Virus record (IMG/VR): IMGVR_UViG_3300003937_000254
Coordinates: 1-27,525 of that record
Origin: a virus
Length of the DNA stretch: 27,525 nucleotides
Reading direction: 5' to 3' (one strand)
The position numbers and the translations under genes were made by a program. How positions within the stretch are numbered: position 1 is the first letter of the stretch; each line of letters starts with the position of its first letter. Under the pieces are notes generated by a model, which worked only from the letters and a program-made list of their open reading frames with translations, had not been told where the DNA came from and ran no database searches. Positions 3,950 to 12,378 of this stretch are shown here, piece by piece.

Positions 3950-4493
3950 TTATGTCGCCAGTAAAAAATATATATTGTTTATTATCAGGATATATTATAT
4001 TGATTTTAGTTGGATGTACTTGCCATTCACTAAATATATCTTGTCTTCCTTCTTTTAGTCTTTCAAAAAACTTAGGTGATTTATCACGTGACCAATAAAT
4101 TAATGGTTTATCTGTCAAATGTTTTAATGTATATTTTAATTCTTCGAAGTCATCAACTTTCTCTAATAGCTTTGTGCCATCCGTTCTATATTTATTAAAT
4201 CCAAAATATCTTGAGAAGACTCTTACTGCATTACCATCAGTCTGAGCACCTGAAGCTAGTACAGGTTCTATACCATCGAAGACAAAATTATATATAAGCA
4301 TCTTACCTAAGTGTAGATTGCGGCCGCTATAATTCTCATCTAGCCTATCTCCACCTCTTTCCTTACCCATCATATAAATAGCATTATCACATAATGACAT
4401 ATCACGTTGAGATATCTCAAAATTATATTTTCCTTTATATATGTATGGTACTACTCTAAATCCACATGGTAGTGTTTCACTTTTTGGTATCAT
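3924..4493 (-). CDS. Protein of unknown function (189 aa)
   Basis: I do not recognise a family with confidence. It is a soluble protein with no signal peptide or membrane segment, rich in aromatic residues, with a Cys near the start (LPCGFRVVPY), a central ASGAQTDGNAVRVFSRYFGF segment and a C-terminal WQVHPTKINIIYPDNKQY segment. The central pattern is faintly GNAT-like (acyltransferase), but no acetyl-CoA loop is clear. Its start overlaps the methyltransferase stop as ATGA, and its 3' end overlaps the SDR-oxygenase fusion by 26 bp, so it is an integral member of the minus-strand operon. That context suggests a role in the same tailoring pathway. Confidence 0.55.
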   Translation of the reverse strand: MIPKSETLPCGFRVVPYIYKGKYNFEISQRDMSLCDNAIYMMGKERGGDRLDENYSGRNLHLGKMLIYNFVFDGIEPVLASGAQTDGNAVRVFSRYFGFNKYRTDGTKLLEKVDDFEELKYTLKHLTDKPLIYWSRDKSPKFFERLKEGRQDIFSEWQVHPTKINIIYPDNKQYIFFTGDINEILHNRN

Positions 4494-5185
4494 AATCTTA
4501 CATCTACTATTGTTCTACGACCACTAAATATTGGCACATCTATATTATAGAATTTTGTATTAAAGCACATATACCTATATAGCTGATCTTCAATTGTGTT
4601 TAATTCTAAATCCTCTCTCCAACATTCAGGATGTTGATTTTTCTTTGGTTCTTGTATGATTGCACCATAACAATTATAGAATTTGTGCATATCAGTAAAT
4701 AATTTTAAATGATTATCTGGTTCATATAATAAAACACCTGACCATATAATACAATCAACGTCAAAGCCTACAGATAATCTATCGTGAAATGATCCGACAG
4801 CATATTCTATATTAGGAAATTCTTGCCACGTTTCTTGACCATACTTAATAGGTTCAGGGGATGTATCAAAGCCAAAGTACTGATAATCTGTGTATCCTCG
4901 ATAGTATAATATCTCATTGATTGGACCATGTCTACAACCTACATCAACTATACCTTCGTAGCCATGCTCCATAATAATATCAGCTTGCTTTTCAAATATA
5001 GGTAAAGCTTCAGGAGTATCTAAGTAATCCATACTATACATACGATAATCTTCTTTTAATGGGACATCATCGAATATTTCTTTAGGTAATCTTGGAAATG
5101 GAATACCATTTACATAGTTTGTTTCGCGAAAGTCGTACTTTTCTGGATTAGGTAAGTGCTTTCTCGGCATATTTTTTAAATTCAT
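4490..5185 (-). CDS. Class I SAM-dependent methyltransferase (231 aa)
   Basis: Motif I is IVDVGCRHG (residues 79-87), followed by the acidic strand-2 end YFGFDTS and a later VDCIIWSGVLLY segment matching motif IV. This is the standard Rossmann methyltransferase core at residues about 65-200. It transfers a methyl group from SAM; the acceptor cannot be predicted. The start at 5185 overlaps the end of the upstream oxygenase by 38 bp; an in-frame ATG at 5170 is an alternative start. A TATAAATA octamer 9 nt before the ATG suggests a secondary late promoter inside the upstream coding sequence. Its stop overlaps the next ATG (ATGA). Confidence 0.8.
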   Translation of the reverse strand: MNLKNMPRKHLPNPEKYDFRETNYVNGIPFPRLPKEIFDDVPLKEDYRMYSMDYLDTPEALPIFEKQADIIMEHGYEGIVDVGCRHGPINEILYYRGYTDYQYFGFDTSPEPIKYGQETWQEFPNIEYAVGSFHDRLSVGFDVDCIIWSGVLLYEPDNHLKLFTDMHKFYNCYGAIIQEPKKNQHPECWREDLELNTIEDQLYRYMCFNTKFYNIDVPIFSGRRTIVDVRL

Positions 5186-5729
5186 GATATGTTTTATTTA
5201 TACCTCTCCATGCAACACAGAATATTGCTCGAGGTGCTTCTAATACTTTGACGTCATGTAAGTATATTGTATCTAATAAGACTGGCTTATCTACAATGAT
5301 TTCACCTATTTTATTTGGTGGATATTTATCTTGTAACATATTCCAATGCATCATGCCATGTCTATATTCTAATTGTTCTTGTATAGTTTCATATATGCCA
5401 ATCTTTGCTACACCATACATTGGTAATAATAAATTAAATTGATTACCTTCTCTCTCATCAAAATCTATATGAGGCGGAACACCAGATGTAAGAGTAGCAT
5501 TCGAATTAAAACCAGTACCATGCTCACACATACCAATATTAACTCCACTCATAATTGTAAGTATATGGTCCCATTGTCTATAATAATCTGGGTTATTTCG
5601 AAGAATATGAGATTCGGTTCCACATTCAATGTACTCTTTACCATGTACACCTCTTACTTCGTTATGTTTTCGTATGAGATAATCTTTATCATAATCGACA
5701 TTAATATACTCAACTATTCCACTTAGCAT
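5148..5729 (-). CDS. 2OG-Fe(II) oxygenase-like protein, Asp/Asn hydroxylase type (193 aa)
   Basis: The iron-binding pair is H87-I-D89 in VPPHIDFDEREG. A jelly-roll strand (FNLLLPMYG) follows, with the distal His158 and a likely 2OG-binding Arg167 in LHDVKVLEAPRAIFCVAW. This order and spacing fit aspartyl/asparaginyl hydroxylase-like dioxygenases, which hydroxylate an amino acid side chain or small molecule using O2 and 2-oxoglutarate. A good ribosome site, AAGGAG, lies 4 nt before the ATG at 5729. It overlaps its neighbours on both sides (20 bp with the FMN reductase, 38 bp with the methyltransferase). The substrate is unknown. Confidence 0.7.
   Translation of the reverse strand: MLSGIVEYINVDYDKDYLIRKHNEVRGVHGKEYIECGTESHILRNNPDYYRQWDHILTIMSGVNIGMCEHGTGFNSNATLTSGVPPHIDFDEREGNQFNLLLPMYGVAKIGIYETIQEQLEYRHGMMHWNMLQDKYPPNKIGEIIVDKPVLLDTIYLHDVKVLEAPRAIFCVAWRGINKTYHEFKKYAEKALT
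5195..5202 (-). promoter_or_regulatory. T4-type late promoter octamer TATAAATA inside a coding region
   Basis: Minus-strand TATAAATA followed by 9 nt and the methyltransferase ATG. It lies within the last codons of the upstream oxygenase gene, so coincidence is possible in AT-rich DNA. The position relative to the start matches the other octamers. Confidence 0.45.
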
Positions 5730-6324
5730 CCCACTCCTTATATTGTTCTACCCATTTTTGTGGTCTATCTGTCATATCAGGTTTTCTCTCTCGTGGTTCA
5801 GCTAAGAATGTATTACGCATATCAAATATTTCAATTGCTTCTTCTTTAACCCACTCATAATTACCTGGAATGCATTCTTTCCAACCGTTGTTCTTACAAA
5901 AAGTATCATAAACTATACCACCCATTTTCTCTATTAAATGTGTAGACATTTGAAAATGTCTATGACCAGCATTTTTTACTACAGGAGTAAATGTTATTAT
6001 ATAGATGGGTTTATTAGAGAATGGTCCATCTTGGCCAAGATCAGAATTAAAATGTGTTGAACATATTATCCAATCCATTGCATTTTTAAATCCAGCAGAA
6101 TAATGAGCAGTAGCTTCAGGTATTGCAAACACTAATATGTCTGCATCTTTAATTACCTTTAAGAAATTATGTACACGAACTAACACTTTACCATCAGCAC
6201 TATTCTTATCACATATAGGCATGTTAAAATCTGTCATGTCATATACGTAATCAAGACCCATTAATTTTAAGCCTCGAGTATTCATAGAGTTCTTTGCATG
6301 ACTAAAAGATATTCCTGTAATCAT
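5710..6324 (-). CDS. NAD(P)H-dependent FMN reductase-like flavoprotein (204 aa)
   Basis: The segment ADILVFAIPEATAHYSAGF with the following KNAMDWI matches the flavodoxin-fold FMN reductase signature (in the family: AD-hydrophobic-PEY-N-x-S-x-P-G-x-L-K-N-x-x-D-W). The N-terminal phosphate-binding loop is short (SFSHAKNSMNTRGL). The family uses NAD(P)H to reduce FMN or quinones. Here it could supply electrons to the neighbouring oxygenases or reduce an intermediate; that link is inferred only from the operon. Its start is coupled by ATGA to the upstream gene. The C-terminus is charged and extends about 40 residues past the core. Confidence 0.7.
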   Translation of the reverse strand: MITGISFSHAKNSMNTRGLKLMGLDYVYDMTDFNMPICDKNSADGKVLVRVHNFLKVIKDADILVFAIPEATAHYSAGFKNAMDWIICSTHFNSDLGQDGPFSNKPIYIITFTPVVKNAGHRHFQMSTHLIEKMGGIVYDTFCKNNGWKECIPGNYEWVKEEAIEIFDMRNTFLAEPRERKPDMTDRPQKWVEQYKEWDAKWNS

Positions 6325-6914
6325 AATGGTTTATCTACAAAAAAGTGAAGACTCATTTTTCCTGTTGTTTCACTTTCAACGGAATGAAAATGAGTTTGAT
6401 TAGCAAGCATAACAACATCGCCTATTTCATATTCTAAATCTTTTATTTTTTTAAAATGATCGTGTCTCATATTAGCCAAATTTGCTGCATATTCTGTTTG
6501 TTCATAATCCCATCTATTCGCATCAGGATGTATAGGTTCCCACACATCTATTCTTGATCTCACATCAACGATAGGTATAATCGCTGTCCAATATCCTACA
6601 CATTGGTTCATATTCTTTTCCATATATGGTGACTTATCTCTATGTATAGATAACTCAACCGTATCAGGATAATGCCAAAGAAAACATTCTGATATCAAAT
6701 TATAACCAAGACTATCAGTTAATATATCTTTATACTTTTGTGGCAAATCAAAAACAGAAGAATATGTAGCTTTCTTATTTCCATCTGAAGTATAAGATAT
6801 AGCTTTCTCAGCTACAGCCCATTCATAGCAGTTAATATTATCTAAAACATAATTAGATAATTCTTGAACATTTCCTTTATATGGAACTTTATAAACACAA
6901 TTAATATCCGACAT
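6321..6914 (-). CDS. 2OG-Fe(II) oxygenase-like protein (197 aa)
   Basis: A putative iron pair H91-R-D93 (VELSIHRDKSPY) is followed by a beta-rich region (VGYWTAIIPIVD), a turn GDVVMLANQTHFHSVES with candidate distal His175 or His177, and a final strand KMSLHFFVDKP. This fits the double-stranded beta-helix oxygenase fold but is divergent, and the 2OG-binding Arg is not obvious (a Lys lies nearby). The start is uncertain: ATG 6914 gives MSDINCVYKV and a short overlap with the TauD-like gene, while ATG 6959 adds 15 basic residues and sits deeper in the upstream gene. Its stop overlaps the next ATG (ATGA). It belongs to the oxygenase cluster. Confidence 0.6.
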   Translation of the reverse strand: MSDINCVYKVPYKGNVQELSNYVLDNINCYEWAVAEKAISYTSDGNKKATYSSVFDLPQKYKDILTDSLGYNLISECFLWHYPDTVELSIHRDKSPYMEKNMNQCVGYWTAIIPIVDVRSRIDVWEPIHPDANRWDYEQTEYAANLANMRHDHFKKIKDLEYEIGDVVMLANQTHFHSVESETTGKMSLHFFVDKPL

Positions 6915-7791
6915 CCTTCTTTTTCCAACCAATTTTACCACCTGTGCTATCAACTTCATTACCTTTTAATTCATACCAATCACTAGGCATAATAACACTA
7001 TAGTCGCTTGCTATTCTCCATAGTTCTCGATTAACATCTTCAATTGCAGTACGTCTATGCAATGAAGCAAATTGGTCCATAAGTATTAAGTCACCTTTTT
7101 TAAATATATGGTGTGTAAGATACTTTGATCTCATTATCTTTGCATATAACTTATCAACAAATTCATCTCTATCAACAGGTACTTTCCTTTGTCCTTTTGA
7201 TTTATGCCATACCTTTCGTATAAAGTGATATGAGAAATAAATATATTCTTCACCAGTGTGTGGATGCTTATCAACTAATTTACGAATAGAACCAACATGA
7301 CTATCCATAACTTCTAATTCTGGATCGTCTTCATGTAATTCCATCATCGTATTATTTTCATATTTAAAATAACACGAAATGCCTCTATAGTATTCTTTAT
7401 CTTCTTCAGATAAATCTCTCCATACATCTCTCGTATTTACTATTGATAGAGTAGTATCTTCACATGGTTTTTCACAATATAATCCTATTAATATTTTTTT
7501 AACATCCTTTCTTGAATTTCCATTCGAATGCCAACCTAATTCTTTATCGCCAAACATTCCAACCTTACTGCCATCTTCATGTCGTTTTCCTGTAACTATA
7601 AAGATTTCTGGATTATCAAGTGGATTCATCCATAATCTTGGTGTTTCAGGTTCACCAAACCTTTTCATTAGTTTAACATATTCAGATTGAGTTAAATCTT
7701 GTTCAAAAAAGAAAATAGGTTTTCCAGTCTGAATTTCTTTTGCAACTTCTAATAATTTTTCATCACTAAAATTTAATATTTGAGTAGTCAA
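6901..7791 (-). CDS. TauD/TfdA-like oxygenase paralogue 3, HxN variant (296 aa)
   Basis: Overall a TauD-type dioxygenase: N-terminal MTTQILNFSDEKLLEVAKEI, iron-site strand ELGWHSNG, then EDTTLS, and the distal site SLHRR (His245) with the 2OG-binding Arg259 in ELWRIASDY. The first motif is H88-x-N90 where the family has HxD or HxE, so one iron ligand is changed. The same change occurs in the two tandem paralogues and in the gene at 10002. It starts with TTG at 7791, with GGAGG 7 nt upstream inside the preceding gene, and overlaps that gene by 26 bp. It is the most diverged of the three tandem copies. It may be an oxygenase with altered chemistry; the substrate is unknown. Confidence 0.75.
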   Translation of the reverse strand: MTTQILNFSDEKLLEVAKEIQTGKPIFFFEQDLTQSEYVKLMKRFGEPETPRLWMNPLDNPEIFIVTGKRHEDGSKVGMFGDKELGWHSNGNSRKDVKKILIGLYCEKPCEDTTLSIVNTRDVWRDLSEEDKEYYRGISCYFKYENNTMMELHEDDPELEVMDSHVGSIRKLVDKHPHTGEEYIYFSYHFIRKVWHKSKGQRKVPVDRDEFVDKLYAKIMRSKYLTHHIFKKGDLILMDQFASLHRRTAIEDVNRELWRIASDYSVIMPSDWYELKGNEVDSTGGKIGWKKKDVGY

Positions 7792-7803
7792 ATGCTAACC
7801 TCC
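7760..7803 (-). repeat. Junction repeat copy A of the tandem TauD-like genes
   Basis: This 44-nt segment and 8562-8605 match at about 39 positions. It contains the GGAGG ribosome site, the TTG start of the downstream gene and the stop of the upstream gene, so each copy carries the whole translational junction. It marks the boundary of the tandem duplication. Confidence 0.7.
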
Positions 7804-8593
7804 ATAACATACGCTTTGTGTCTTTAACAGGGGACCGCCTGTGTGTAGTATGTAATTGGTCCATAAACAATAAGTCACCTTTTCTAAATACATGATGTTT
7901 CATATATTTCGATTTAAATAACTTCCTCCATAACTCATCATATAAAGCTTCATGATTAATTCTTTCACCTCTTTCAAATGCGCCAACAATAAATGGTACC
8001 ATGAAATATAAATATTCTCTACCATCAATTGGATGTTTACCTACTAATGGCCTTCTATCTACATCCTCTTGATAAAACTCAGCTCCTGTGTTAATAGTAT
8101 TTTCAGGCGCTGGCTGATCAGGTAAATCATAGTCAGATATCTTATATATAGCATCTGTTACATTATCAAGCTGAATATCTATAGTTCTATATCTTTCTTT
8201 ATCTCTTTCAGATAATTCTGCAAATGCATCACATTGATTACATATTGATAATACAGTATCTATACATTCTTCTACACAATATAGGGTTACAACTATTTGG
8301 TCAAATTTATGACGAGCTGTACCATTAGCGTGCCATTGTAATTCACCTTCGCCAAATACTCCTATCTGTTTTCCATCTTCATCTTTTTGTCCACTTACAA
8401 GACTAATTTCTGGGTGATCTTTAGGATTCATAAAGTAATTATATCCTTCGCATTCACCCATACGATAACCCATTTTGACATATTCTTCTTGTGTCAATAC
8501 TTGATCGTACAACACAGCAGAACCCGTAGCTATAATTTCTTCAGCTAATTCTTTTAATTGTTCATCACTAAAATCTAATATTTGAGTAGTCAA
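7766..8593 (-). CDS. TauD/TfdA-like oxygenase paralogue 2, HxN variant (275 aa)
   Basis: Closely related to the next gene upstream (8568-9389): N-terminus MTTQILDFSDEQLKELAEEI, iron strand ELQWHANG (H88, N90), VVTLYCVEECIDTVLSICNQ, then DLLFMDQLHTTHRR with distal His251 and Arg265 in RMLWRLAFDYSN. The Asp/Glu iron ligand is Asn, as in its paralogues. It starts with TTG at 8593, preceded at 7 nt by GGAGG (8601-8605), which lies inside the Trp-Arg codons of the upstream gene. The last 26 bp overlap the next paralogue. Tandem duplication explains the arrangement. Soluble, cytoplasmic. Confidence 0.78.
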   Translation of the reverse strand: MTTQILDFSDEQLKELAEEIIATGSAVLYDQVLTQEEYVKMGYRMGECEGYNYFMNPKDHPEISLVSGQKDEDGKQIGVFGEGELQWHANGTARHKFDQIVVTLYCVEECIDTVLSICNQCDAFAELSERDKERYRTIDIQLDNVTDAIYKISDYDLPDQPAPENTINTGAEFYQEDVDRRPLVGKHPIDGREYLYFMVPFIVGAFERGERINHEALYDELWRKLFKSKYMKHHVFRKGDLLFMDQLHTTHRRSPVKDTKRMLWRLAFDYSNIKF

Positions 8594-8605
8594 ACGCAGT
8601 CCTCC
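8562..8605 (-). repeat. Junction repeat copy B of the tandem TauD-like genes
   Basis: Second copy of the junction described at 7760-7803: GGAGG, 7-nt spacer, TTG start, and the TAG stop of the preceding gene 26 nt into the next. A more diverged third version lies at about 9364-9400 and uses ATG. Confidence 0.7.
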
Positions 8606-9389
8606 ACAACATTCTATCCATATAATGTATAGGCGATCGTCTATGAATCGTCTTTAATTGGTCCATAAAGAGTAGGTCGCCTCTTCTAAATACGTGATGT
8701 TTCATATATTTTGATCTGAATACTTTCGGCCATAAGTCATCATAGAATTCTTTAATGTCTAATTTCTTATTTCCAATATATGCTTCTTTTAAATATTGAA
8801 TAAGAAAATAACAATATTCTTTGCCATCTATTGGATGAATACCAATAAGCGGTCGTCTATCATCATCTTCAATAGCTTCTTTATAATATTCATTGCTTAC
8901 ATTAAACTCCCGCTCTCTACCCATATAATCACTATTAGGCCACAATGTAACACCATTTCCATCAAGGTGTACATCAATACTTCGATAATAATCTTGTTCT
9001 TCTTTGGATAGATCAGCAAACATATGTGACCAATTACATATTGAGAGCACTGTATCTACGCATTCCTCAACACAATATAATGATACAACAAATTCTGTTA
9101 GCTTATGTCTACCAGCACCGTTCACATGCCATTCTAATTCTTGATCTCTAAACATACCAATAGAATTGCCATCTTCATCTACTTGACCAGATACAATACT
9201 AATTTCTGGAGTATCAGGTGGATTCATCCAATATCCTTGTTTCTCGCACTCACCAAAACGTTCGCATACTTCAACATGCTGTGCTCGTGTTAGATTTTGT
9301 TCATGGAGTACTACTGATCCATCTTCGATTATTTTATTTGCTAATTCTGTAAATTGATCGTCGCTATAATCTAATATCTGTAATGTCAT
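8568..9389 (-). CDS. TauD/TfdA-like oxygenase paralogue 1, HxN variant (273 aa)
   Basis: First of the tandem trio in transcription order. MTLQILDYSDDQFTELANKI at the start, iron strand ELEWHVNG (H88, N90), VVSLYCVEECVDTVLSICNW, distal DLLFMDQLKTIHRR (His249) and Arg263 in RMLWRTAFDYSN. Most conserved with the 7766 gene, differing mainly between residues 135 and 200. It starts with ATG at 9389 and overlaps the end of the Asp/Asn hydroxylase-like gene by 26 bp, the same length as the two overlaps downstream. The ribosome site GGACGG (5 nt before the ATG) is a weakened form of the GGAGG used by the other copies. Confidence 0.78.
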   Translation of the reverse strand: MTLQILDYSDDQFTELANKIIEDGSVVLHEQNLTRAQHVEVCERFGECEKQGYWMNPPDTPEISIVSGQVDEDGNSIGMFRDQELEWHVNGAGRHKLTEFVVSLYCVEECVDTVLSICNWSHMFADLSKEEQDYYRSIDVHLDGNGVTLWPNSDYMGREREFNVSNEYYKEAIEDDDRRPLIGIHPIDGKEYCYFLIQYLKEAYIGNKKLDIKEFYDDLWPKVFRSKYMKHHVFRRGDLLFMDQLKTIHRRSPIHYMDRMLWRTAFDYSNIRF

Positions 9390-9993
9390 TTTGTCCGTCC
9401 AAACTAAACATAAAGGCTATGCGTGGTTCGTCGCTCTTATTGAATACGCCATGAGCAAACCCAGTATTTAAGAAGTAGGCTTTACCTGCTTCTAAATGTG
9501 TTTCAATCTCTTCACCTTTCACTTTAAATAAATTCTTTACTTTCTCATTTGTATAAACTGGTATAATAACTCTTGTGGCATATGTAGGATCATAATCAAT
9601 ATGCATAGGAACATTCGTATGTGGATCAAGTTTAGTGATACGAACTCTCATCTTATCACATTCAAACTGATTACATATCTCTTCGAAATAGCTTCCTATA
9701 TATTTTTCATTTGGCTTATTATATAGTTTTTCCTCACCTCTTCTTAATCTTTCTTTTATGCTATCTGTATATTCTAATTCTTTTTCACCGCCAAATTCGG
9801 TTAAGTTTACTTGTTCAAAATTATCGTATACAGATTTACTCAATGCCATATGATTATCACATAACATTTTGTTAGCGGTCTTTACATCAACATAGTCATT
9901 AGCTAACTTATCAGTAGCAGCTTGAAGCTTATCAAGATCTATATTGATATGCTTTAATTCACCATGTGTTGGTAATTTATATTTTGTTCTCAT
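9364..9993 (-). CDS. Asp/Asn beta-hydroxylase-like 2OG oxygenase (209 aa)
   Basis: The clearest aspartyl/asparaginyl hydroxylase-type domain in the window: RVRITKLDPHTNVPMHIDYD gives H131-x-D133; a strand RVIIPVYTN follows; then YFLNTGFAHGVFNKSDEPRIAF gives distal His181 and Arg191. The N-terminal 115 residues are helical and less conserved. Members hydroxylate Asp/Asn or related residues using O2, Fe(II) and 2OG. I chose ATG 9993 (MRTKYKLPTHG) because a TATAAATA octamer sits 5 nt before it; a longer frame from 10047 would run back into the upstream gene. The last 26 bp overlap the first TauD-like paralogue. Confidence 0.8.
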   Translation of the reverse strand: MRTKYKLPTHGELKHINIDLDKLQAATDKLANDYVDVKTANKMLCDNHMALSKSVYDNFEQVNLTEFGGEKELEYTDSIKERLRRGEEKLYNKPNEKYIGSYFEEICNQFECDKMRVRITKLDPHTNVPMHIDYDPTYATRVIIPVYTNEKVKNLFKVKGEEIETHLEAGKAYFLNTGFAHGVFNKSDEPRIAFMFSLDGQNDITDIRL

Positions 9994-9998
9994 ATTTC

Positions 9999-10006
9999 TA
10001 TTTATA
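9999..10006 (-). promoter_or_regulatory. T4-type late promoter octamer TATAAATA
   Basis: Minus-strand TATAAATA overlapping the TAA stop of the 10002 gene and followed, after 5 nt, by the ATG at 9993. The spacing is the same as at 2955-2962, and no Shine-Dalgarno sequence is present in between. Confidence 0.65.
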
Positions 10007-10931
10007 CAACATAGTCGTGGTGTTTCCTCATATGTGATTTGTACCATGTAGCAGTTCGTAATAGTTTACGTGGCTTATCTTTAAGTATATCTGGTCTTCT
10101 ATGTATACCTATTACATTATCAAATAATGCTATATCTCCTTCTTGCCACGTATGCATATATACGTATCTATCATTACATACATAATCATTCCATAACTCA
10201 TTAAATAATTCTTCTGAGTGTTCATACGGTTCACCATCTTTTAAAAATCCGTGTACCTCATATGGACTAAAGAATAAACCTTCGACACCTAATGGATGTT
10301 TAGGTACAAGTCTATGATTATTCATTATACCACGAGATGCACCAAATTTGTGTTTATTCTCAGGCTCCATATTTAATGCATTAAAAACCTCACGAGTTTC
10401 TCTATTCTTTTGAATTTCTCGTAGAACTTCTTCTCCATATATTTGTCCAAACTTAGGCTGCCATGCTGGCTTATATACACCTAATGTTCTTTTAGGGTCA
10501 AGTACAACTGTTAATTCTCTTAAAAGATTTTGTTTCTTTTCAGGTAATTGATTAAAATATGGTATTGAACTAGCAAACCATGTTTCAGTTTCATAGCTTA
10601 TTGTCTTCGCATATAAACCTATGACTTCCTCTGCGTCAGCAACTGGAGTCATATTAGTATGCCAATCTAATTCATAGTCACCAAATAATCCTTGGTTTCT
10701 ATCATCAACCATTTCATTTGTTACTGTCCAAAACAGATCTGAATGTTCTTTATCAGTACACCATATTTCTGGACTTAAGTGATAACCTATACCTAAAGAC
10801 CATTCAGCGTATTCTTCAGGAGTTGCTCCGCTATCACGTATAACAACTACACCCACATTTGCAATTAATTCAGCAATGTTGTCTGGATTTAATTCGTCTA
10901 ATGTAAGACCTAAGTAAGTTGGTACTACCAT
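10002..10931 (-). CDS. TauD/TfdA-like oxygenase, divergent, HxN variant (309 aa)
   Basis: N-terminal half MVVPTYLGLTLDELNPDNIAE and an insertion-rich middle differ from the three tandem copies, but the core is TauD-like: YELDWHTNM gives H91 and N93, then EVIGLYAKT, and a distal DIALFDNVIGIHRRP with His277 and Arg292 in KLLRTATW. Again Asn stands where the iron ligand Asp/Glu is expected. The ATG at 10931 overlaps the aminotransferase stop as ATGGTAG, a natural coupled start; a TTG at 10952 would add seven residues. It carries a long insert (about residues 170-205) lacking in the paralogues. The substrate may be larger or different; not predictable. Confidence 0.75.
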   Translation of the reverse strand: MVVPTYLGLTLDELNPDNIAELIANVGVVVIRDSGATPEEYAEWSLGIGYHLSPEIWCTDKEHSDLFWTVTNEMVDDRNQGLFGDYELDWHTNMTPVADAEEVIGLYAKTISYETETWFASSIPYFNQLPEKKQNLLRELTVVLDPKRTLGVYKPAWQPKFGQIYGEEVLREIQKNRETREVFNALNMEPENKHKFGASRGIMNNHRLVPKHPLGVEGLFFSPYEVHGFLKDGEPYEHSEELFNELWNDYVCNDRYVYMHTWQEGDIALFDNVIGIHRRPDILKDKPRKLLRTATWYKSHMRKHHDYVV

Positions 10932-11752
10932 TCTATAAGTGGAGTTAAGCAAAGTCTTGCTGTTGGATTACCTTTAGCTCGCCTTCTTTTTTTATAATAT
11001 GGATCACCTGATGTTGCAAGAAAAAAACAATCAGATGGTACTAAACTATATTTTTTACATAAGTGTATCTGTGTTTGTCTATGTCTATTAAACATTTCAT
11101 CAACTGTATAATTACTCATAATAAGTTCCATTGTTTTTACCGATGCATAATTCCAATTTTCAAAATCTTTTAGCATATGTAATGTCTTATGAGGTTTTTT
11201 TGTATAAACTAAACCACATCTATTTCCTATCATACCAAATCCTTTTGAGAAACTAAACATAACTTGTTCAGTATTTTTTGGTATATGTATTTTTTGTATG
11301 CCTGTACTACTTATATATGTACAATCTAATATGACTGGACACTCAACATCTTTTAAGTCATTATGAATATTACCACAACGAGCAGATGGATTTGATAGGT
11401 ATAATACTTTATGTTTATCTAAATCATCATCAATCTCTGTGCCAGCATCGATTATATTAGGATATTCATATTCACCTTTAATGTATTGCCATTGACGATC
11501 TTCTTTAAGTAACCATTGATGGATAGCATCAGTACTGCCATTTGTAACATAGCAATAAGGAAATTCGCTTAAATCAATAATGTCATGAACCCAATTACGA
11601 TGTGTAGCCTCAACCCAATCTAAATCTTGAGTTGCTTGCCCTGACCCACGTTTGTAATAAGTATCGGATATACGTTGTTCCTTCAAAAGATGCCAAACAT
11701 CTTCAGTCATAGGAACATCAACCCATCTATTATTTTTTAATTCTTTTTCCAA
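10925..11752 (-). CDS. Compact PLP-dependent aminotransferase, class I/II fold (275 aa)
   Basis: Fold-type I landmarks are present in order: TNGSTDAIHQW (cofactor phosphate region, residues 70-80), LYLSNPSARCGN with N121-P122, ILDCTY with Asp143 and Tyr146 contacting PLP, and FSFSKGFGMIGNRCG with the Schiff-base Lys170 and Arg178. At 275 residues it is far shorter than the usual 380-420; the C-terminal small domain seems reduced, ending in ARLCLTPL where the substrate carboxylate-binding Arg is expected. It could be an aminotransferase, a C-S lyase or a decarboxylase of the same fold. It overlaps the desaturase by 16 bp and is coupled to the TauD-like gene. Confidence 0.75.
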   Translation of the reverse strand: MEKELKNNRWVDVPMTEDVWHLLKEQRISDTYYKRGSGQATQDLDWVEATHRNWVHDIIDLSEFPYCYVTNGSTDAIHQWLLKEDRQWQYIKGEYEYPNIIDAGTEIDDDLDKHKVLYLSNPSARCGNIHNDLKDVECPVILDCTYISSTGIQKIHIPKNTEQVMFSFSKGFGMIGNRCGLVYTKKPHKTLHMLKDFENWNYASVKTMELIMSNYTVDEMFNRHRQTQIHLCKKYSLVPSDCFFLATSGDPYYKKRRRAKGNPTARLCLTPLIEW

Positions 11753-12378
11753 AATCTATCCGCCAAATGTCCACCTAAATCGTATTTACCTAATATTAAC
11801 CTACGTGGCTCCTCATGATGTACTTTGTGATAACCATCACCGCCTAAAATCCAATTCATCCATGGTCCATCAGTAGGACCATTCCAATGACCAAATATAT
11901 TTAACATACCAAATCCTACCTTTGCAAATACATAAGGCATAAAGGCTGCAGCCCACCAGAAGTACGGTGATATAGCCATACACACGGCCCAATATAACCA
12001 TAAGAATGTTTCCCAATTCTTATGAGCCCATACAAGTCTTGGATTATCGTATAAATCTTTTGCAAATCTTACTGGTATATGTGGTAACTTCCATGTTGTA
12101 AGTGCCACTTTCCAATAACCTATTTGTTTAGCATCGTGAGGATCTAATGGTCCTTCAAGATCTGCATGATGCATTCTATGACTTGCTACCCAACCAATAG
12201 GCGTACGAACACAAGCAATCATAATGAGTATTATGAAGCCAACCTCGTGAAATACACTTGTTTTAAATTGTTGATGAGCAAAGTATCTATGTAATCCTAC
12301 AGAAACAGCATAGTGTGTAACTACCTGGCACCATAAGAATCCTAATCCTGTTGCCCACGCAAATAATTCCCAGTTCAT
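11737..12378 (-). CDS. Membrane acyl (delta-9 type) desaturase (213 aa)
   Basis: The three His boxes of acyl-CoA/acyl-lipid desaturases are complete: HRYFAH (30-35), HRMHH (67-71) and HKVHH (184-188). Hydrophobic helices lie at about 8-28, 44-60 and 120-158. The enzyme introduces a double bond into a fatty acyl chain in the membrane using O2 and electrons from a ferredoxin or cytochrome. At 213 residues it is shorter than the typical 270-320, losing terminal regions but no catalytic His. It is first in the minus-strand run, 10 nt downstream of a TATAAATA octamer. It suggests that a lipid, or a lipid-linked product, is involved in this island. Confidence 0.88.
   Translation of the reverse strand: MNWELFAWATGLGFLWCQVVTHYAVSVGLHRYFAHQQFKTSVFHEVGFIILIMIACVRTPIGWVASHRMHHADLEGPLDPHDAKQIGYWKVALTTWKLPHIPVRFAKDLYDNPRLVWAHKNWETFLWLYWAVCMAISPYFWWAAAFMPYVFAKVGFGMLNIFGHWNGPTDGPWMNWILGGDGYHKVHHEEPRRLILGKYDLGGHLADRFWKKN

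Follow-up and report, generated by a model that had tools for sequence, protein, structure and literature searches.

The window is a marine phage fragment, with a virus record of 27,525 bases, and encodes four proteins that match the TauD/TfdA family (PF02668), all of them on the minus strand. Three are arranged in tandem: protein 1 (6901-7791; 296 aa, TTG start; PF02668 E 1.1e-24) with the motif WHSNG, protein 2 (7766-8593; 275 aa, TTG start; E 6.4e-21) with WHANG, and protein 3 (8568-9389; 273 aa; E 2.2e-15) with WHVNG. The fourth, with WHTNM, lies at 10002-10952 (316 aa from a TTG start, or 309 aa from an ATG at 10931; E 6.4e-27). The consecutive overlaps of the tandem ORFs are exactly 26 bp each (7766-7791, 8568-8593 and 9364-9389), as expected for tandem duplication with coupled translation. 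In a single IMG/VR contig ~99.9% identical to the window (L004 and L100), ~207 bp corresponding to window positions of about 7409-7615 are missing; the loss is in-frame, falls within protein 1 and deletes the HxN motif, and is either a real variant or an assembly error.

The iron triad of 2-His-1-carboxylate 2OG hydroxylases, HxD/E...H, is not found in these proteins, all four of which carry HxN. An earlier note had read the motifs as WHSN, WHAN, WHVN and WHTN, and this was confirmed from the ORFs and codons, the asparagine being Asn90 in protein 1 (AAT, 7522-7524, minus strand; motif W87 H88 S89 N90), Asn90 in protein 2 (AAT, 8324-8326, minus), Asn90 in protein 3 (AAC, 9120-9122, minus) and Asn100 in protein 4 (AAT, 10653-10655, minus). 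The numbering H91/N93 previously given for protein 4 holds from the ATG at 10931, where that reading ended, and becomes H98/N100 from the TTG at 10952. In alignments with solved TauD relatives, the Asn of WHxN takes the place of the Asp in WHTD/WHAD. As also claimed before, the distal His and the Arg are kept: all four proteins have the distal His-Arg-Arg and the later, 2OG-binding Arg. The remaining 2OG-like ORFs of the window retain H-x-D-type motifs, which confines the change to the TauD proteins.

Membership in the TauD/TfdA family is clear, with PF02668 scores of 57.7-95.6 bits over the full domain, compared to a curated cut-off of 27, and a jelly-roll fold in which the distal His and the 2OG Arg are conserved. 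The AlphaFold2 model of protein 1 (pLDDT 88) has the TauD fold, with confidence dipping to about 78-85 around residues 81-100, and that of protein 4 has a pLDDT of 86. The protein 1 model matches TauD, ScoE, SfaA, PlaO1, AtsK and Rv0097 with VIA Z of about 24-25, and Foldseek E-values for it reach down to 4.8e-17. None of the NCBIfam models scored above its cut-off for the TauD proteins, which rules out assignment to a known family by this route; the model for the ScoE-type (3R)-3-[(carboxymethyl)amino]fatty acid oxygenase/decarboxylase (NF049937) gave at most 43 bits, compared to an equivalog cut-off of 400. The only PHROGs matches, those of proteins 2 and 4 to phrog_24590, were weak.

The TauD genes are embedded in a set of minus-strand genes, the recurrence of which was assessed by tblastn at 1e-8 with only 3 kb of flank, among 80 related phage loci that include near-identical contigs. 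On one side are a methyltransferase-like protein (4490-5185; matched in 77 of the 80 loci), a small 2OG-oxygenase-like protein with the motif HID and no Pfam match (5148-5729; 39/80), an NADPH-dependent FMN reductase-like protein (PF03358; 5710-6324; 54/80) and a 2OG-oxygenase-like protein with H-x-D and no Pfam match (6321-6959), which is rare in relatives (3/80). Between proteins 3 and 4 lies an AspH-like protein with a canonical HIDYD motif (9364-10047; 68/80), which matches PF05118 (aspartyl/asparaginyl hydroxylase); the TauD proteins match PF02668 only. Beyond protein 4 are a PLP aminotransferase-like protein (10925-11752; weak PF00155, below cut-off; 58/80) and a fatty-acid-desaturase-like protein (PF00487; 11737-12378; 49/80). 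Part of this set recurs in a Bacteriovoracaceae metagenome-assembled genome (MAG), where locus L087 has the methyltransferase, the small HxD protein, the FMN reductase and the AspH-like protein, and the bacterial locus L088 has the AspH-like protein, the PLP enzyme and the desaturase. The WHxNG type thus sits in a cassette that is conserved in phages and partly in a Bacteriovoracaceae MAG. Taken with the genes further right in the window, radical SAM and nitroreductase genes among them, the cassette looks like one that makes a modified small molecule or glycan.

Several further features of these loci were recorded. The window encodes three twitch-domain radical SAM proteins (NF033640; 12452-15367, 16652-18226 and 18226-19686), the first of which, at 971 aa, has an extra HID motif near its C-terminus and may carry a 2OG domain there. 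In L087, small H-x-D oxygenase-like paralogues (1-2280 and 11408-11965) form a run near an HxN TauD gene. At the left edge of the window, on the plus strand, a CHASE2 domain (PF05226; 22-957) adjoins an adenylate/guanylate cyclase catalytic domain (PF00211; 974-1456), a pairing unusual for a phage.

The conservation of the Asn was assessed by scanning IMG/VR phage contigs with the motif G-x-F-x-[DE]-x-[DE]-L-x-W-H, with the residue after WHx left free. Among the matches listed were 112 distinct genuine TauD sequences, of which 110 have N, one D and one A; five further listed matches were chance frames without the distal motif. The distal motif was recognisable in 102 of the 110 listed N sequences and not in the other 8, at least some of which are cut-off sequences. 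Both the residue x and the residue after the Asn vary among the listed matches, the latter being Gly in 46 of the 110 and Glu, Leu, Met, Ala or Val in the others, while the Asn is constant. Relatives were also collected by patterns that did not include the Asn, giving the 80 phage loci, to which bacterial, cyanophage and plasmid loci were later added. Across all of these the WHxNG type always has N, and relatives of protein 4 mostly have N, with four having D. The NG-type rows span a total branch length of about 20 substitutions per site with zero changes at the Asn column, and the adjacent x position is S, A, V, Q, T or N. In the HxN alignment H88, H245, R247, R255 and R259 are invariant and T113 is near-invariant; R247, two residues past the distal His, is mixed in HxD sequences. 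The first bacterial scan was biased, as its pattern included WHxNG, and reliance was placed on the free-residue scan and on profile searches.

HxN members are found in the cultured Pelagibacter phage Mosig EXVC030M and, as WHSNES, in the Prochlorococcus phages P-HM1, P-HM2 and MED4-213, where the gene lies outside any such cassette. Among bacteria, a Bacteriovoracaceae (Bdellovibrionota) MAG (G002) has one WHSNG protein and one protein 4 relative, WHSNV, on the same contig, and further HxN proteins occur in four other genomes: G003 (three), G123 (two), G204 and G278. The two of G123 are divergent TauD genes on one contig (L135 and L143), one match being counted despite an internal TGA stop. 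In profile searches of 290 genomes from the phylum of G002, 10 genomes gave matches at E 1e-6, only some of them HxN. These bacterial loci sit on MAG contigs and may represent integrated phage or binning errors.

On phylogenetic trees the HxN sequences clustered, bearing out the proposal that the motif defines a clade: 3 state changes were counted with the motif column included, compared to a shuffled mean of about 9, and 4 with the column removed, compared to about 10. Within the fourth subfamily, the two HxD sequences L123 and L039 form a pair (100/99) nested in HxN, and the HxA sequence L170 pairs with the HxD sequence L277 (99/88) beside the WHSNES group. The TauD gene of L170, L171 and L239 (WHSAEA) lies between nrdB-like and glutaredoxin-like phage ORFs, which were identified by eye from translations. 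The D and A members inside HxN are best read as later changes, and the simplest reading of the trees would be a single basal D-to-N change, followed by N-to-D and N-to-D/A changes. The number of D/N change events is provisional, since the HxD outgroup consists of only seven plasmid-borne sequences, some bacterial rows are long-branched, and L143, an HxN row from a bacterium, falls with the outgroup. The natural N-to-D change in the fourth subfamily suggests that both residues are exchangeable in one scaffold.

Chance or lineage-specific decay is ruled out by the free-residue scan together with the trees, and the argument of the earlier note that conservation across diverged copies speaks against random loss is strengthened by the 110 of 112 listed distinct TauD sequences with N. 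Since nearly the whole branch retains the Asn, the change from Asp looks selected rather than accidental. We propose, with a probability of roughly 0.55, that these proteins form a TauD/TfdA clade of their own, made up of Fe(II)/2OG oxygenases with H-x-N, most of which are active with a neutral Asn at the third position. Retention of the His pair, the Arg and the Thr, together with strict purifying selection on the Asn, points to a working Fe/2OG site rather than decay. Iron binding and turnover, the role of the Asn and the substrate are inferred as follows. The two His would bind Fe(II), and the conserved Arg and Thr would bind 2OG. The Asn would fill the third protein position, its side-chain oxygen coordinating the iron or an iron-bound water being held there, and the four proteins may work one after another on a single small molecule or glycan from the surrounding cassette. 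Experiments on model enzymes fall on both sides: removal of the carboxylate abolished hydroxylation in TauD D101A and in P4H D414A/G (PMC2767507), which counts against an active HxN site, whereas human AspH, a 2OG hydroxylase, works with water in the carboxylate position (PMC13168262, PMC10947486), and even single-His variants are still active (PMC10947486).

The inactivation of those model hydroxylases (PMC2767507), together with the presence of several TauD paralogues in tandem, would also suit pseudoenzymes that have lost Fe/2OG chemistry and serve a binding or scaffold role. We consider this unlikely, because both His, the 2OG Arg and the Thr are conserved across large divergence, whereas pseudoenzymes usually lose these too, and because, among the matches listed, it is Asn specifically that is retained and not any residue. 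Alternatively, the missing carboxylate could be made good by another Asp or Glu moving in as iron ligand. The best candidate would be E84, which stands four positions ahead of the His and hardly varies in HxN. The same Glu, however, occurs in 4 of the 8 HxD sequences used for comparison, has become D in both HxD proteins of the fourth subfamily and, going by the strand geometry, is expected to be distant from the metal. D234 and D239 do not vary in HxN, nor do they in HxD enzymes. Comparison of the HxN and HxD columns gave no clade-specific acidic residue, which removes a replacement carboxylate as an explanation, and a substitute ligand, raised earlier as what would overturn the reading of the site, is accordingly the least probable of the alternatives, being very unlikely.

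The earlier note had drawn an analogy with halogenases. In a halogenase or pseudohalogenase, an anion would occupy the third site and the Asn would stabilise it. The absence of a carboxylate at this position, the occurrence of HxA, the SyrB2-type motif, in one member of the broader clade (L170/L171/L239) and the abundance of chloride in sea water all count in favour of halogenation or pseudohalogenation. However, known 2OG halogenases have HxA or HxG (PMC12346261), and the window proteins lack this motif, HxA being found only in the distant relative, so that the motif by itself gives no ground for calling them halogenases. Asn, being similar in size to Asp, would be expected to occupy the site, whereas Ala or Gly opens it to halide (PMC12346261); the two HxD relatives nest within the HxN subfamily of protein 4; and AspH, also carboxylate-free, does not halogenate (PMC13168262). 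The analogy is therefore not supported, and we judge halogenation improbable. Somewhat less doubtful, though still not likely, is the broader idea that a neutral third position lets a substrate anion, halide or pseudohalide bind the iron and so diverts the reaction from plain hydroxylation; the D and A members would then mark shifts to or from ordinary hydroxylase and halogenase-like sites. The Asn might instead be a precursor, deamidated post-translationally to Asp with the aid of the next Gly, which would yield either a timer or an HxD site of the usual kind. Deamidation is generally fastest at Asn-Gly and slow where Asn precedes Glu, Leu, Met, Ala or Val. Gly follows the Asn in the 46 listed sequences noted above and such deamidation could apply to these Asn-Gly members, but not to those with Asn-Glu, -Leu, -Met or -Val; with more than half of the listed sequences lacking Gly, a clade-wide rule is ruled out. 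Plain Asp is moreover one transition away and present in relatives, making this account very improbable.

The proposed clade of active H-x-N oxygenases is also not one already known as ordinary active enzymes, at least in the open-access literature: searches there (subscription papers largely outside) for an HxN 2OG oxygenase or a 2-His-1-Asn site gave no description, only kinase papers. In the passages on 'taurine' and '2OG' of the original comparison that covers P-HM1 and P-HM2, the gene is annotated as 'taurine catabolism dioxygenase' and the metal site is not commented on (PMC3037559). As far as the open-access literature goes, the HxN proteins thus make up a large branch of an iron-dependent oxygenase family that had so far gone unremarked. 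Searches for 2OG oxygenases use HxD/E, or HxA/G for halogenases, and may therefore file the HxN phage clade wrongly, either with inactive proteins or with ordinary taurine dioxygenases. Should the clade prove active, it would offer an iron site that natural selection has shaped without a carboxylate, and would bear on the purpose of the carboxylate and on the transition from oxygenase to halogenase. The cultured carriers (Mosig EXVC030M, P-HM1 and P-HM2) and the natural HxD and HxA relatives provide ready comparisons.

Compared to characterized TauD/TfdA dioxygenases (PF02668) such as E. coli TauD, AtsK and AAD-1, the window proteins have in common the fold, the first His, the distal His and the 2OG Arg, but differ in having HxN instead of HxD, at an identity of 13-20%. 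The isonitrile-forming oxidase/decarboxylases ScoE, SfaA and Rv0097 are the best structural matches and are among the nearest NCBIfam models; however, they carry WHAD, and the scores of 16-43 bits are far from the cut-off of 400. The Fe/2OG halogenases SyrB2, WelO5, BesD and DAH likewise have no carboxylate at the third position, which is HxA/HxG there and Asn here. Human AspH also has a non-carboxylate site, with which it is active, although it belongs to another 2OG subfamily (PF05118 type) and uses HxG with a water (PMC13168262, PMC10947486).
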